Shown piece by piece: positions 18,319 to 25,475 of a DNA stretch of 64,000 bases. Numbering within the stretch: the stretch's first letter is position 1; every line of letters begins with the position of its first letter. Both the position numbers and the translations under genes were made by a program. This DNA is from Propionicicella superfundia DSM 22317 (GTDB lineage: Bacteria; Actinomycetota; Actinomycetes; Propionibacteriales; Propionibacteriaceae), in NCBI RefSeq assembly GCF_000423465.1, contig NZ_KE384020.1, positions 923,671-987,670 on the forward strand, read 5' to 3'. The notes below the pieces were generated by a model. That model did not search any database, had not been told where the DNA came from, and saw only the letters and a program-made list of their open reading frames with translations.

Positions 18319-19437
<1,119 letters not shown>

Positions 19438-19557: not shown

Positions 19558-19630
19558 GACTGCGAGCGACGTGGCACCTCAAGCCACAGGGTTGCCACTC
19601 GGCGTGTTGACGTTCTTACATCACTATTCG

Positions 19631-19648: not shown

Positions 19649-19671
19649 TGTCACATTGTAAGGAGGTTGCG

Positions 19672-20247
19672 ATGCCGGACAACGATCGGTTCCGTTGGGG
19701 CCTATCAGCGCGCTGGATGCGGGTGCATCGGTCCATCAGTGCTGGTGATGGCTCGGACCAGATAGCCGACTTTGTAGTGAAGGCCGTCGCCGCCGACCTA
19801 CGACGGTCCGGTGGGATTGAGGCAGCAGCCGAGCGCGCGGAGGCCGTCGAGTGGCGACCTGACAGCGTCCGGTGGTCCGACCCCATTCAGGATCAGGACA
19901 GTGTGTCGAGTCGGCACCAACTGACGCTTCTCGCTGTAGACCAGCTCACTCGGCAACTGGCCTTGACCTCACCTGTGACTGCGCTGGAAGCGCTCGCCGA
20001 AAGGGTTATCTCGAACATGACCGACGATAAGTTTGACCGGATGCTGCCAGACGTCCTTCGACTGGGGAGCCTTACGGCGGCCGAGTTCGCGGATCTGCGA
20101 GACGTCGTCCATGGCCATCCCCAGATGGCGCTCCTCCGCGACCAGCTCGTGAAGCATCCCAGTGCAGCCGGGTTACAAGCGCCGCGCCGAACGGTTCGCC
20201 CCCCGAAGGTTGCCGATCTGCTCAACACCGATCTGGGTGACCTGTGA
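19672..20247 (+). CDS. unknown protein, first gene of the QueC-like/XRE-ImmA/PIN operon
   Basis: Protein of 191 residues that I do not recognise. The start at ATG 19672 follows a strong AAGGAGG by five bases. The composition is that of a soluble, mostly helical protein with no TM helix, signal peptide or visible catalytic motif. The central part (LTLLAVDQLTRQLALTSPVTALEALAERVISN, spanning about 85-116) looks like amphipathic helices, and the C-terminus is basic and Pro-containing before an acidic end (LLNTDLGDL). Its stop overlaps the QueC-like start by one base (TGATG), so the two are translationally coupled. By analogy with Qat and type IV CBASS, where a QueC-like enzyme acts on a partner protein, it could be the substrate or adaptor of the next gene; this is inference only. 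Confidence 0.75.
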   Translation: MPDNDRFRWGLSARWMRVHRSISAGDGSDQIADFVVKAVAADLRRSGGIEAAAERAEAVEWRPDSVRWSDPIQDQDSVSSRHQLTLLAVDQLTRQLALTSPVTALEALAERVISNMTDDKFDRMLPDVLRLGSLTAAEFADLRDVVHGHPQMALLRDQLVKHPSAAGLQAPRRTVRPPKVADLLNTDLGDL

Positions 20248-21560
20248 TGTCGGAGGGCGGGATCGCGTCGTATGTCGTTGGTTACCGGGCTGGCGCTGAG
20301 GGTCAGGACCGGATGCTTCGGTGGGCAAGCGATCTCACGGTGGATGGTAGAGGGTTTCGCCAGCACCTCGCCGAGGCGATTCCGGCCGAAGCGTCTGATC
20401 TGCTGATCCTTGCCGCATCCGCGTATGCGGTCGACCGGATGGTCCCTCGGCCAGGCTTGCGCCAAACCCGCGATTCGGGCGACTGGCACCGTGACCTCGC
20501 CCTTGACGTGCCGGTGTCGGATCCTGATCGCTGGGCAGTACTCGCACCCCAGCTAGAGCGACTCTTGCGATGGCTGACCGATGACAACTGGCATCTCGGC
20601 TTCTCTAGGCGTACCACCGGCCAAGGACCGCTCGATCCGTCCCAACAAGCACTGTTCAGCACTGTGCCAACCGGATGTAGGCCGATCCTGTTCTCGGGCG
20701 GACTCGATTCGGGGTGTGCGCTTCAGAACGCTTTGGCGGTTGGCGATGCTGTCGCGATCAGTGTCCACACCAACAGCTGGATGCAGAACACCCAGCAGAC
20801 TGTCGCCAAAGGGTTGGCGAGTCTGTCCTCGAACCATCTGGCTGCCCTGAGCTTTCGGGTCAACCTGCCCGCCGGTGGCGCCGAGACGAGTCAACGGACG
20901 CGTGGCATGTTGTTCTTGGCATCCGGGACGATGGCGGCCATCGCCGCAGGTGCCAATGGCTTGGTTGTGGCGGAGAACGGCGTCGGCGCCATCAACCTCC
21001 CCTACCTCGCGTCGCAGCGCGGAACTGAGGCGACCAGGGCGATGCACCCCAAGACACTGCATATGTTCAGCGACATCGTGACCACTCTGACGGGCAGCGA
21101 CTTCACGGTTGAAGCTCCCTACCTAATGAACACCAAAGCGGAACTGATCAGCCTCACCAGCCCAACGGCTGACGACGTGCTTTCTCATACGGTGTCGTGC
21201 GACAGCGGCTTCTCGGCGCGGGTGGTTGACCGAGCGCCGTGCGGATGCTGCACGTCGTGCATCCTCAGGCGTCAGTCGTTGGCTGCGGCGGGCCGGCCTG
21301 TGATCGATGGACGTCTCCCGTATCGCCGCCAGACGCCGTCCGGTGTTCCGGAGTTTGCGGCGATGGCTTGGCAGGCGCTCCGTCTGCGGCGCTGCCTCTG
21401 TCGTGCAGATCCCTGGACTCAGCTGCTACTAGAGTTCCCGGAACTCGTACATCTTGAGGGCCTCCTCGGCACCGACCAGGTGCTGCAGCTCTACGGCAGA
21501 TACGTCCAGGAGTTCGAAACGTACCTGAAGTCGCTTGGCGTTGAACAACAGTGGATGTGA
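20247..21560 (+). CDS. QueC-like PP-loop enzyme, probable defence component
   Basis: Protein of 437 residues resembling 7-cyano-7-deazaguanine synthase (QueC) in its second half. The PP-loop ATP-pyrophosphatase motif SGGLDSG is at 150-156, and a characteristic helix region follows (RTRGMLFLASGTMAAIAAGA, then VAENGVGAINLP). Zinc ligands are C318 plus CxxCxxC at 332-338 (PCGCCTSCILRR), the QueC arrangement. An N-terminal extension of about 140 residues and a C-terminal one of about 85 make it nearly twice the size of housekeeping QueC, as in defence-associated homologues (QatC, type IV CBASS). No queD, queE or folE is nearby, arguing against queuosine synthesis. ATG 20247 is preferred; a GTG one codon earlier is possible. 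Gene 2 of a four-gene operon. Confidence 0.82.
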   Translation: MSEGGIASYVVGYRAGAEGQDRMLRWASDLTVDGRGFRQHLAEAIPAEASDLLILAASAYAVDRMVPRPGLRQTRDSGDWHRDLALDVPVSDPDRWAVLAPQLERLLRWLTDDNWHLGFSRRTTGQGPLDPSQQALFSTVPTGCRPILFSGGLDSGCALQNALAVGDAVAISVHTNSWMQNTQQTVAKGLASLSSNHLAALSFRVNLPAGGAETSQRTRGMLFLASGTMAAIAAGANGLVVAENGVGAINLPYLASQRGTEATRAMHPKTLHMFSDIVTTLTGSDFTVEAPYLMNTKAELISLTSPTADDVLSHTVSCDSGFSARVVDRAPCGCCTSCILRRQSLAAAGRPVIDGRLPYRRQTPSGVPEFAAMAWQALRLRRCLCRADPWTQLLLEFPELVHLEGLLGTDQVLQLYGRYVQEFETYLKSLGVEQQWM

Positions 21561-22751
21561 GTGCGGAACAAGATGACCAACTCTGAGCACACCGGACAAC
21601 GACTCCGCTCCGCGCGAGAACGCGCCGGCCTGACGCAGGCGGAAGCAGCCGTCGAGCTAGGCGTCAGTCGGCCCCTGCTCATCGCCATCGAGAAGGGCAC
21701 GCGGGACGCGACGCCGGCCGAACTGGTCAAGCTGGCCGAGTTGTACGGCCGTCCACTGAGCGAGATCCTTCGCCCTTCCGAGCCACCCGCCGCAATCGGC
21801 GCGCGGTTCCGAACCGCCCTCGCTACCACCCCTGGAGCCCAGGAGATCGAGCACAGCATCCAGGAGCTCGAGCGCAACGCTGATCACTATCTCGACCTGC
21901 TCCGTCGGTCGTCCTCATCGTTGCCAGGGCACTCGCCCGCCGCACGTCCCGTCGATGGGCTGGACACGAACGTCGCCGCCGAGACCCTGGCGTTGGATGA
22001 GCGCACGCGGCTTGGTTTGGGCGATGGTCCGATCGACCGGCTGCGGGAGACGCTCGAGATCGAAGTTGGACTCCGTGTCTTCGTCCTGCCACTGCCACGC
22101 AACATCTCGGGCTTGTTCGTGTACCTTGACCCGCTGGGTGGGTGTGTCGCCGTCAACGCCAACCACCCGCGAGAGAGGCGACGGTGGACCAAAGCGCACG
22201 AGTATGCGCACTTCATCGTCAATCGGAACAAGCCGGAGATCACCGAGATCCCCGGTCGCAAGCGTCTCAGCGAGTCAGAGCGATTCGCCGATGCTTTCGC
22301 CGCGAACTTCCTGATGCCGCGGACTGGTCTGATTCGGCGATTCAACGAACTCAAGCGGAGCAAAGCAGAAAGGGTCACGCCAGCATCCCTAGTCCAGCTC
22401 GCACACTCCTACGGCGTGTCCGCCCAGGCGATGACGCTTAGGCTCGAAGACCTCAGCATGATCCCGGCCGGGACCTGGGACAAGCTCAAGGACCACGACT
22501 TCCAGCCTCGGAAGGCGGCTGAGCAACTCGGCATCCAGCAGCAGCGGGAGTCGATCGAGGCGTTCCCGGTCCACTACCGAAGCCTGGCGGTTCAGCTGTA
22601 CGCAGATGCGGAAATCAGCGAGAGCCAACTCTCCCAGTATCTTGATACGGACATAGTGGGGGCGCGGCAGGCATACCAAGAACTGACTACCACTTCAGAC
22701 ATCGGCGATGATGGCATGGCTCAGATCTTCGACCTGCGGGGATCGGACTGA
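21561..22751 (+). CDS. XRE-family HTH / ImmA-IrrE (COG2856) metallopeptidase
   Basis: About 396 residues (GTG 21561 directly after the previous stop; ATG 21573 is an equally good start and numbering here is from it). An N-terminal XRE HTH (about 8-63, LRSARERAGLTQAEAAVELG) is followed by a linker, then an ImmA/IrrE zinc peptidase domain with HEYAH at 209-213 and a downstream E(S)ERFADAFAANFLMP segment that supplies the third ligand region. Such proteins act as repressors or antitoxins that are cleaved or cleave on a signal (ImmA, IrrE, RosmerTA-like pairs). It is followed after three bases by a PIN toxin-like gene, the classic arrangement for a COG2856 toxin-antitoxin pair. Here it is joined to a QueC-like enzyme. 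Confidence 0.88.
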   Translation: MRNKMTNSEHTGQRLRSARERAGLTQAEAAVELGVSRPLLIAIEKGTRDATPAELVKLAELYGRPLSEILRPSEPPAAIGARFRTALATTPGAQEIEHSIQELERNADHYLDLLRRSSSSLPGHSPAARPVDGLDTNVAAETLALDERTRLGLGDGPIDRLRETLEIEVGLRVFVLPLPRNISGLFVYLDPLGGCVAVNANHPRERRRWTKAHEYAHFIVNRNKPEITEIPGRKRLSESERFADAFAANFLMPRTGLIRRFNELKRSKAERVTPASLVQLAHSYGVSAQAMTLRLEDLSMIPAGTWDKLKDHDFQPRKAAEQLGIQQQRESIEAFPVHYRSLAVQLYADAEISESQLSQYLDTDIVGARQAYQELTTTSDIGDDGMAQIFDLRGSD

Positions 22752-22754
22752 CTC

Positions 22755-23297
22755 ATGACCGCGGGGATTCCGATCGTTGTGGACGCCTGCGTCTTGATCA
22801 ATCTAGAGGCTACGGGGCACCTTGATGCCATCGTGCGCATGCTCGACCTCGACATGGTCGTTACGGAACCTGCGCGCGCCGAGGTAGGCAGCCTGCGCGG
22901 CGAGGTCGACGGAATCACCCAAACTTTCCCCATACAACTTGAGCACCACATTGGCTCGGGCGCGTTGACAGTGACTGCGCTGAAACCGGAGGAACTGTCG
23001 ACGTACGTCGAGCTTGCGCTGGAACTCGGAGACGGCGAAGCCTCAAGCATCGCCGTCGCTGCGAACCGGGGTCTGGCCATAGCGACCGACGACCGCAAAG
23101 CCCGCCGAGTTAGTTTGGAGCGCGGCCTCGCTGAACCAAAGCGCACTACGAGGATCCTTCGTGACTACTGCAACCGAGCCCGGTGCGAATCTCCCGTCGT
23201 GCGAGGACTCCTCCAGGCGATACAGCATCGAGCCAGCTTTGTGCCCCCACGATCGGATCCGGACCACGACTGGTGGAGAACCCACATCGGCGAGTAG
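22755..23297 (+). CDS. PIN-domain ribonuclease-like protein (probable toxin/effector)
   Basis: Protein of 180 residues with a PIN fold: Asp10 in PIVVDACVLINLEATG, an acidic pair in LELGDGEASSIAVA (about 93-95) and Asp112-Asp113 in AIATDDRKARRV, giving the metal-binding acidic cluster of PIN nucleases (DUF3368-like spacing). The C-terminal 60 residues are basic and Trp-containing. It starts three bases after the XRE-ImmA gene, so it is the last gene of the operon and the natural candidate for the toxic effector. Target (tRNA, mRNA or DNA) unknown. Confidence 0.82.
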   Translation: MTAGIPIVVDACVLINLEATGHLDAIVRMLDLDMVVTEPARAEVGSLRGEVDGITQTFPIQLEHHIGSGALTVTALKPEELSTYVELALELGDGEASSIAVAANRGLAIATDDRKARRVSLERGLAEPKRTTRILRDYCNRARCESPVVRGLLQAIQHRASFVPPRSDPDHDWWRTHIGE

Positions 23298-23579: not shown

Positions 23580-24470
23580 TCACGCCGCCAGTGCGACGGT
23601 CGTGTTCATGATGATCTCGAACTCGATGGGGGTCAAACGTCCGAGGCGGGCTTGGCGTCGGCGGCGGTGGTAGGTCCGTTCGATCCAGGTCACGATCGCG
23701 ATTCGCAGCTGTTCCCGGGTGGTCCAGGAGCGGCGGTCGAGGACGTTCTTCTGCAGCAGCGCGAAGAAGGACTCCATGGCTGCGTTGTCCCCGCTCGACC
23801 CGACTCTGCCCATGCTCCCGACCATGTGGTGACGGGTGAGAGCACGACGGAACTTCCGGCTTCGAAATTGAGATCCTCTATCGCTGTGCACCACGCAGCC
23901 GGCGACATCGCCGCGCATCCGGACGGCGTTCTCCAGCGCCGCGACGGCCAGGCGCGACTTCATCCTGGAGTCGATCGAGCACCCCACGATCCGGCCGGAG
24001 AACACGTCCTTGATCGCGCAGAGATACAACTTGCCTTCCGCGGTCTTGTGCTCGGTGATGTCCGTCAACCACAGATCATTCGGTGCGTCGGCGGCGAACA
24101 TCTGCCGGGTCCGACCCTTCTCGTCGGCGACGGCGCAGAGATCATCATGGACGGGAGGACCGGGACGGCGGCTCTTGCTCCGCTTGGGTTTCCCGAACGC
24201 GCTGAACCAGCCATTGCTCGACGCGATCCGCCACGCGGTCCGGTCCGACATCGCCTCGCCGGCCTCGCGGGCCTCATCGGCCAGCAGCCGATGCCCGAAC
24301 TCGGGGCCGTCCCGGTGGGCGTCGAACAACGCGTCCGCGCGATACGCCTCCACCACCTCGCTCGGCGTGATGGGGCCCTGCAGCCACCGGTAGTAGGGCT
24401 GGCAGGACAGCTTGATCACCGTCACAGGGATCCCTGCTTCGGCGAGCTCCGCCACGAGCGGGTACATCAT
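23580..24470 (-). CDS. IS3-family transposase OrfB (DDE integrase domain)
   Basis: Protein of 296 residues with the IS3 OrfB layout: HTH_21 region (YRADALFDAHRDGPEFGHRL), then the rve catalytic core with D in DLWLTDITEH, D in VVHSDRGSQF and E in NAAMESFFALLQ, the DDE triad. It ends with the RLTPIEFE tail. Its ATG overlaps the stop of orfA (ATGA), consistent with production of an OrfAB fusion by -1 frameshifting. The reading frame is intact, so the element may be active. Confidence 0.93.
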   Translation of the reverse strand: MMYPLVAELAEAGIPVTVIKLSCQPYYRWLQGPITPSEVVEAYRADALFDAHRDGPEFGHRLLADEAREAGEAMSDRTAWRIASSNGWFSAFGKPKRSKSRRPGPPVHDDLCAVADEKGRTRQMFAADAPNDLWLTDITEHKTAEGKLYLCAIKDVFSGRIVGCSIDSRMKSRLAVAALENAVRMRGDVAGCVVHSDRGSQFRSRKFRRALTRHHMVGSMGRVGSSGDNAAMESFFALLQKNVLDRRSWTTREQLRIAIVTWIERTYHRRRRQARLGRLTPIEFEIIMNTTVALAA

Positions 24471-24760
24471 TTCCCCGGCAGGTTGGCCTGCGACAGATAC
24501 GCCGCCGCACGCCGCAGGACCTCGTTCTCCTGCTCCAGCAGCCGGTTCCGCTTCTTCAACTCACCGATCTCCGCGGCCTCTGACCGGGACTGGCCGGGCT
24601 TGGCGCCCTCGTCGATATCGGCACGGCGGAGCCACTTCTGCAAGGTCATCGGGTGAACACCAAAGTCTCTCACGACCTGCTCGATCGTCACGCCGGGCTC
24701 GCGGCTCCTCGCGACACGCACGACGTCGTCACGGAACCCGGACGGGTAAAGCCTGGGCAC
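24467..24760 (-). CDS. IS3-family transposase OrfA (HTH, leucine zipper)
   Basis: Protein of 97 residues from GTG 24758-24760. The helix-turn-helix reads EPGVTIEQVVRDFGVHPMTL and QKWLRRADID, and a C-terminal leucine-zipper-like segment (ELKKRNRLLEQENEVLRRAA) follows, as in IS3-family OrfA. It binds the terminal inverted repeats. It overlaps orfB by four bases. A longer in-frame extension upstream runs across the IS end and is not part of the protein. Confidence 0.9.
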   Translation of the reverse strand: MPRLYPSGFRDDVVRVARSREPGVTIEQVVRDFGVHPMTLQKWLRRADIDEGAKPGQSRSEAAEIGELKKRNRLLEQENEVLRRAAAYLSQANLPGK

Positions 24761-24821
24761 AGCAACATCCTCCCAAGCCGCCCTCCCGGGCAAGCCAGAC
24801 CAGATGTCACCTATCCGTTCA

Positions 24822-25196
24822 GCAGACCCCGGCGACTGCCACGCGCTGTACCTGAGCATCGACGACTCGCTGAGGCGGACCGCCAATCAGGCCTTCTTCG
24901 ACAAGCTCTACGTCACCACCGACGACCAGATCGACGGCCAGCCCGGCGAGCCCTTCAACGTCCTCTTCAACCCGGACGTGCAACGACTCGCCCTCCGCCC
25001 GGAGGCAGAGGACGAGTCGGGAACTCAAACATCGTCCGTCGTGGGTTTGAACGACGAACATTGGGTGGAGGTGGCGGGAATCGAACCCGCGTCCTCGAGA
25101 GGCGAACCAGGACTTCTCCGGGCGCAGCCGACTCAGCGTTCTACTCGGCTCTCCCGCTCGCATCGGCACGTCGGGAACGAGTCCAGCCCCAGTTGA
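24822..25196 (+). pseudogene. C-terminal remnant of a serine recombinase running into ssrA
   Basis: Right after the IS end the plus strand encodes DCHALYLSIDDSLRRTANQA, FFDKLYVTTDD and GEPFNVLFNPDVQRLAL, the C-terminal pattern of large serine recombinases of actinobacterial integrative elements. The catalytic N-terminal domain is absent. The frame continues antisense through the 3' end of the tmRNA gene to a stop near 25196 (VEVAGIEPAS...), as expected when an integrase gene adjoins its attachment site. The insertion sequence probably replaced or cut off the upstream part. Confidence 0.7.
25060..25090. other. probable attachment-site junction at the ssrA 3' end
   Basis: The recombinase tail reads into the 3' end of ssrA, a frequent integration target. 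The acceptor and T-arm of tmRNA are intact, as expected when an element carries a copy of the target. I did not find the partner repeat at the left side of the accessory region by eye, so the exact core is undefined. Confidence 0.45.
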
Positions 25197-25430
25197 GTCC
25201 CGCACTGGCCCTGAGACACAGCCAGTACAGCAAGCCTTCTGAATGAGGCCAGGGTCCGGACGGAAGGCACATCCGGTCTGACCCTTCGATCACTGATCAG
25301 GCAGCGAGAGCGAAGTCAGTGCGCTTTGCATCGGCACTTATTGGTTTCCAGGGATCGTTAACGAGTTGACCTTGGATCCTCGGCCCGCTTCTCCTGGGAC
25401 TACCGTCCCAAGTCGAAACCAGTCACCCCC
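25066..25430 (-). ncRNA. ssrA: transfer-messenger RNA (tmRNA)
   Basis: The 5' end GGGGGTGACTGGTTTCGACT (from 25430) pairs its first seven bases with CACCTCC near the 3' end (25067-25073, one G-U), forming the tRNA-like acceptor. The 3' part has the T-arm GGGTTCGATTCCCGCCACCT. The tag-coding stretch on the minus strand (25335 to 25300, stop to 25297) reads ADAKRTDFALAA, a typical actinobacterial degradation tag ending in ALAA. CCA is not encoded. It rescues stalled ribosomes with SmpB, encoded at 26071-26544. Its 3' end adjoins a recombinase remnant, so it is the likely attachment site of the accessory region. Confidence 0.95.
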
Positions 25431-25475
25431 TATTGAGTTGTGCGTCAACCAGTGTAGCGCTGCGGCGCCACCGGT

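Follow-up and report, generated by a model that had tools for sequence, protein, structure and literature searches.

Two described immune systems set an enzyme of the QueC family beside a protein with a conserved N-terminus. In type IV CBASS, the enzyme Cap9 adjoins a cyclase that starts with MGGS, and a deazaguanine is taken by Gly2 of that cyclase, according to the available text of PMC13279940. In qatABCD, QatC follows QatB, whose N-terminus is MGTS; the same source, as far as its text is available, reports that this N-terminus and Gly2 are required for defence by QatBC. QatC did not complement queC (PMC13329287 and PMC13279940, accessible parts). Its invariant residues T278 and T280 replace the Tyr and Asp by which QueC and Cap9 recognise and bind CDG, and its reaction is left unresolved by the authors, who could not reconstitute it (PMC13279940, accessible parts). 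The first-pass annotation of the locus described here took the partner protein to be the substrate of the enzyme in both systems: for the CBASS cyclase this is known, for QatB it is proposed. Proteolytic derepression triggered by ssDNA is described for PprI-DdrO and CapP-CapH in the available portion of PMC10904395.

We analysed a stretch of 64,000 nucleotides from Propionicicella superfundia DSM 22317 (hereafter the window), which holds four genes in the order B, Q, X, P on the same strand, all of them open. Gene B (19672–20247, +), the first of the four, encodes 191 residues from an ATG. Q (20247–21560, +) encodes a QatC/QueC-like ATP-using enzyme of 437 residues, X (21561–22751, +) an XRE helix-turn-helix fused to an ImmA/IrrE (M78) peptidase, with 396 residues from a GTG (an alternative ATG lies at 21573, +), and P (22755–23297, +) a PIN-like protein of 180 residues with conserved acidic positions, which matches Pfam PIN only at E 0.07 and the PADLOC candidate PDC-S70 at 3e-6. 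Like qatABCD, the operon places a QatC-like enzyme directly after a small, predicted helical protein whose conserved N-terminal motif lies on a tail predicted to be disordered. Unlike it, it is without QatA (a KAP NTPase) and QatD (TatD), and has X and P instead. Type IV CBASS differs in turn by its CD-NTase: none of B, Q, X and P matches a nucleotidyltransferase family.

B is a genuine gene. A perfect Shine-Dalgarno sequence, AAGGAGG (19660–19666, +), stands five bases before its ATG, and no similar run occurs in the 25 bases upstream of Q, of either start of X, or of P; the first-pass annotation was right to see here the strongest ribosome binding site of the operon. Its account of the junction with Q is also borne out: the stop of B is the TGA at 20245–20247 and the ATG of Q begins on base 20247 (TGATG), so that the overlap is exactly one base. 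Because the protein has no family match in Pfam, NCBIfam or PADLOC, its description as unrecognised is valid for these libraries, and the reported lack of a catalytic motif agrees with the lack of any recognised catalytic domain in the same three. Compared with solved structures, the sequence of B gives no convincing match. Single-sequence searches yielded no relative among viral contigs and plasmids; in 396 genomes of the phylum they gave seven weak matches besides B itself, which we take as chance. Two of these seven genomes hold a QatC-like gene, on another contig.

The neighbour, at first called QueC-like, is more exactly QatC-like. Q scores 179 bits (E 1e-52) against the NCBIfam QatC model NF041925, below the equivalog cut-off of 280 bits, and matches the solved QatC 9zee_B at E 2e-26, with a weaker match to QueC. 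The ATP motif SGGxDS reads SGGLDS, and by alignment Q keeps the DxWxxxF, RxRxxxF, ExG, HP and P(x)4TK motifs and the zinc cysteines of QatC, as listed in the available text of PMC13329287. One of the two QatC threonines is kept, as T263, whereas A265 takes the place of the invariant T280 (alignment anchored on the following His-Pro).

B-Q-X-P is a conserved module in several phyla. X homologues on rhizobial plasmids adjoin QueC-like genes annotated as '7-cyano-7-deazaguanine synthase', and in ten plasmid loci (L035–L044) the annotation or the ORFs give four proteins: one of about 190 residues, followed by QueC-like, XRE-ImmA and PIN-like ones of about 460, 390 and 200 residues respectively; in L042 the QueC-like protein is short in the annotation and full-length as an ORF. 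Lit, Shedu and AbiEii genes are among the neighbours of these ten loci. A scan of genome contigs with Q alignment A2 gave 188 relatives, of which the best 80 were kept and their modules counted by profiles of the four families and by inspection of ORFs. Among these best 80 of 188, B lies directly upstream of Q (within 60 nt) in 79, X is present in 80 and P in 77, in a sample that is biased because the loci were found with module Q patterns. Seventy-eight of the B genes were found by profile and that of L045 by eye; L050 starts at a contig end, and L062, L087 and L091 end before P. The recurrence of B in this place is more than chance would give. In 60 of 87 loci the end of B runs 1 or 4 bases into Q. 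Judged by record title, carriers include Alpha-, Beta- and Gammaproteobacteria, Acidobacteria, Planctomycetota, Gemmatimonadetes and Chloroflexota, together with one Micrococcales MAG, L045; L124 is from Paraburkholderia xenovorans LB400 and L043 from Methylocystis sp. MJC1.

Other QatC-like genes from the same order, class and phylum (L010–L034 and L128–L135) show no X match in the stretch examined, and an MGTS-type start lies upstream in 28 of these 33 loci; we rejected them as module members and treated them as classical Qat. The relatives on viral contigs (L125–L127) have no B, X or P match, and their QatC-like ORFs are longer than usual, about 600–630 residues from the picked start. In two unannotated Listeria phage records, OR848142.1 and OR846725.1, a coding stretch distantly resembles QatC/QueC (24% identity). 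In the literature, among the titles and abstracts of the matches listed, a set drawn mostly from outside subscription papers, we found no description of an operon with QueC-like, XRE-ImmA and PIN genes. Our verdict is that B-Q-X-P is, as far as found, a previously undescribed variant of the QueC-dependent protein-modification systems.

The start of B stands out. Window B not counted, 85 of 87 module B proteins begin with M-x-D-G (MSDGP 58, MTDGP 24, MRDGI two, MPDGP one), the two exceptions being MRDDL in L063 and MDGDV in L045; these counts leave out L068, where the B start was not found, and L050, at a contig edge. Ranked by information over 86 B sequences, residues 1, 3, 4 and 5 take the top four places among 189 columns; the median pairwise identity without the first 12 residues is 0.21, and M-x-D-G is kept in 27 of 28 clusters at 40% identity. 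L045 is left out of the cluster and column counts, L041 out of the profile runs, and near-copies and short loci out of some alignments. The N-terminal tail is predicted to be disordered, yet its motif is the best conserved part of the protein: the AlphaFold2 mean pLDDT of residues 1–10 is 59 in window B and 57 in L085 B, with values of 78–96 for residues 11–60 and 79–97 for residues 81–170 of window B. In carrying an N-terminal motif in this manner, module B resembles QatB and the type IV CBASS cyclase. The window copy starts with MPDN and not MSDG, so that Asp3 is kept and the near-invariant Gly4 is replaced by Asn. Because the C-terminus of B is conserved too, 67 of 88 proteins having [DE][GA][PV] among their ten final residues, conservation of the N-terminus need not mean its modification. 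Acidic ends of module B such as LDDGVxL echo the N-terminal Asp-Gly; the C-terminus of window B (20215–20244) ends with LLNTDLGDL.

By place, length, helix order and neighbours, window B is probably a member of the module B family, and by sequence it is linked to it through L045 only. Window Q shares 38% identity with L045 Q, and the two form a clade with an SH-aLRT of 98 in a tree of 67 rows, 32 of them module rows, in which the split between module and Qat reaches only 72. Aligned with L045 B, window B gives a global z of 6.1, a score reached by none of 2000 shuffles and by 3 of 868 real ORFs, and a local z of 5.4, reached by 2 of the 2000 and 5 of the 868; the 868 control ORFs include the module B ORFs of plasmid loci, and in the global comparison module B of L110 (34) is as high as that of L045 (33). 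The two starts align, MPDNDRF over M-DGDVF, and both proteins end near LLN...LGD. With a module B profile built without either of them, window B is absent from the matches listed (to about E 1.8); of the remaining sequences L045 B ranks highest, at E 0.056, with a shuffled sequence close behind it. Window B agrees with module B in position, in length class and in the order of its helices, the last of these being read from two models that share one alignment. The window copy is divergent.

In the predicted model of window B, a helical core of about residues 13–161 lies between low-confidence N- and C-terminal tails, and the first helix begins at residue 13 in the L085 model as well. With VIA-align, window B has QatB 9y01_A at rank 16 among 614 aligned chains (Z 4.3, rmsd 5.0, 147 of 215 aligned), and L085 B has QatB 9y02_A first (Z 5.3, rmsd 4.7, 147 of 211) and 9y01_A third (Z 4.8) among 999; Z values of this size are common by chance for helical proteins, and both models share one alignment. 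The L085 alignment starts at QatB residue 64, the end of the QatB tail. Foldseek found no significant match for either model (best E 0.88 and 0.075), and hhalign of the B profile with a QatB profile gave a probability of 5%; since the MGTS start served to select the QatB rows, that motif tests nothing here. That a structural comparison picks QatB for a gene beside a QatC homologue may be a weak hint, if one that is hard to dismiss. The likeness to qatABCD includes the QatC sequence motifs of Q and this weak structural match of B. B differs from QatB in its start (M[S/T]DGP or MPDN against MGTS), in its tail of about 12 residues against 30–90, and in showing no detectable sequence similarity to it. 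An identification of B as QatB by motif, tail length or sequence profile was therefore rejected.

Most module enzymes are like Cap9 where window Q is not. S-x-G-x-D occurs in 89 of 89 module Q, the second letter being D, E or N in 87. At the site of the two QatC threonines, 80 of 89 other module Q have Y-x-D, placed by the module profile opposite YPDCR in the QueC of E. coli and of B. subtilis; window Q is without it, and so is L045 Q. Of the nine that lack it, L036, L103, L063 and L045 stand beside an unusual B start and L053, L055, L086, L091 and L098 beside an ordinary MSDGP. Co-variation of the B N-terminus with the Q pocket was considered and found weak, and since five of the nine have an ordinary start we do not claim it.

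The genome of the window host (98% complete) has no match to models of QueC, QueD and QueE. It has TGT, which would fit a host that salvages queuine or its precursors. In the L045 genome we found no QueD and only background radical-SAM matches. Among 41 other carrier genomes, a QueE-model match was present in 33, a QueD domain in 29 and neither in four (L080, L094, L113 and L118, all of which keep Y-x-D); the QueE cut-off of at least 38 bits, over a background of about 20–26, is our own choice, and the survey comprises 43 genomes, drafts and carriers only. Host CDG synthesis is not clearly required in the other carriers. In the window host, a deazaguanine made from CDG is unlikely as the attached group, because Y-x-D and one of the two QatC threonines are missing from Q and no QueC, QueD or QueE was found in the host. 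The missing Y-x-D and CDG genes set the window copy apart from type IV CBASS with its N-terminal deazaguanylation.

Upstream of B, 77 of 86 loci carry the palindrome TGACAWTGTCA within 100 bp with at most one mismatch, whereas only 3 of 1720 control stretches taken from these loci do; L068 and L077, with too little upstream DNA, are left out of the count. Six of the remaining nine loci have the one-base-shorter TTGACATGTCA. The palindrome overlaps TTGACA, which is what an operator would show, and it looks like the operator of the XRE-ImmA protein X, which would be the natural repressor of the operon; the operator-like sequence TGACATTGTCA is its putative target. In the window the corresponding element is weak: TCACATTGTAA (19651–19661, no strand assigned), 21 bases before the ATG of B, has two mismatches to TGACAWTGTCA within 140 bp, and 36 of 1720 control 100-mers equal it. 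L045 has a perfect TGACAWTGTCA 22 bases before its ATG. A possible −35 element of the window operon, TTGACG (19607–19612, +), can be read from the sequence. In the 100 bp before B of loci L035–L124, a second TGACA is often found near the ribosome binding site.

As a putative regulator, X resembles CapP-CapH and PprI-DdrO in combining an XRE repressor with an ImmA/IrrE-type protease that controls a defence or stress operon, and differs in having both domains in one protein. Among nine distant X homologues (L136–L144), four (L137, L138, L139 and L142) stand divergently beside ThiF E1 genes, with a multiubiquitin protein at three of the four; the annotation of the remaining five shows no conjugation genes. 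Of the four loci L136–L139 examined for it, L136, L138 and L139 have a P match after X. The ubiquitin-like loci thus share with the module the X homologue and, in L138 and L139, the P match, but have ThiF E1, and in three cases multiubiquitin genes, where the module has B-Q. That X serves ubiquitin-like conjugation loci fits B-Q as a protein-modification pair, by association only.

The first-pass annotation had assigned B a substrate or adaptor role by analogy with Qat and CBASS. The best reading, now strengthened, is that B is the partner and, still by analogy, the probable substrate of Q: Q is a QatC relative, B stands in the position of QatB, and B is small, predicted helical and equipped with a near-invariant motif on a predicted disordered tail. 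Less of this carries over to the window copy, in which Gly4 is Asn, the family link passes through one relative and the host genome gave no match to QueC, QueD or QueE. From the gene order, the conservation, the motifs, the operator-like site and the predicted folds that we observe, we consider it rather probable that B is the B component of an immune module. Q would bind B in a complex much as QatC binds QatB, take its short disordered N-terminus into the active site, and use ATP to attach a group to it or otherwise modify B. The chemistry would probably not involve deazaguanine from CDG in the window copy. Modified B would then be the active immune component, with an anti-phage role; X, as repressor and ImmA/IrrE protease, would hold down expression of the operon from an operator at its promoter, releasing it upon DNA damage or infection, and P, a PIN-like RNase, would be the likely effector.

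An adaptor role is unlikely. B would then be no substrate and would direct Q to another target or inhibit P in the manner of an antitoxin, its conserved ends being binding motifs. The last gene of the operon is PIN-like, and toxins of the PIN type are usually paired with a partner; B, conserved at both ends, matches no catalytic family. Yet the 1- or 4-base overlap couples B to Q in those 60 of 87 loci, and not to P, and in the precedents, QatB and the CBASS cyclase, the partner is modified at its N-terminus or probably so. We regard as quite improbable that the target of Q is a nucleic acid or a small molecule, with B as a subunit shaping the site of Q. Membership of Q in the QueC superfamily and a Y-x-D like the QueC substrate motif in 80 of 89 module Q would suit such a role; against it, QatC fails to complement queC, the N-terminus of QatB is indispensable to QatBC (PMC13329287 and PMC13279940, available text), window and L045 Q are without Y-x-D, and no CDG pathway was found in the window host.

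Could the N-terminal motif be a cleavage or degradation signal for the ImmA/IrrE domain of X, and not a site for Q? X has an M78 peptidase domain and accompanies B in 80 of 80 loci (best 80 of 188). However, known IrrE-type proteases cut XRE repressors, as the available part of PMC10904395 describes, and X has an XRE domain of its own, so that we find this scarcely credible. Another doubt concerns the window copy itself, as its B may be unrelated to the module B family or decaying: it is not among the matches listed for the module B profile, and the single-sequence searches of the 396 phylum genomes, viral contigs and plasmids gave no convincing relative. We give this little credence, since the alignment with L045 B beats the shuffles (none of 2000 as high globally, two locally) and nearly all of the 868 ORFs, and since position, length class and helix order agree and all four ORFs are open.

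With B as the probable substrate of Q, we tentatively raise a broader possibility, itself rather doubtful: B-Q-X-P may be a third kind of QueC-driven immune system. In it, a QatC-like enzyme would modify a dedicated helical partner at a non-glycine N-terminus (Ser, Thr or Pro, then Asp-Gly or Asp-Asn), in hosts like this one with a group other than one made from CDG. Protein ends would then be modified by a new ATP-dependent reaction, which would take the place that ubiquitin-like conjugation holds in the related XRE-ImmA operons. The module offers a natural comparison series, with Y-x-D enzymes beside M[S/T]DGP partners, the window and L045 enzymes without Y-x-D beside MPDN and MDGD, in genomes whose CDG gene set is incomplete, and the classical pairing of QatC with MGTS. 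Such a series would bear on what QueC-like enzymes attach to proteins. The B family and the operon are missed by the libraries searched (Pfam, NCBIfam and PADLOC).

To the left of the operon, on the opposite strand, lie a TetR gene and an MFS fragment. The MFS transporter gene (18319–18957, −) encodes 212 residues only and matches the first half of the family model; judged from this, it is probably truncated. To the right, in the region 23580–26544, an IS3-type transposase separates the operon from the tmRNA gene (25064–25430, −) and smpB. The four genes may be part of an island located at the tmRNA gene.
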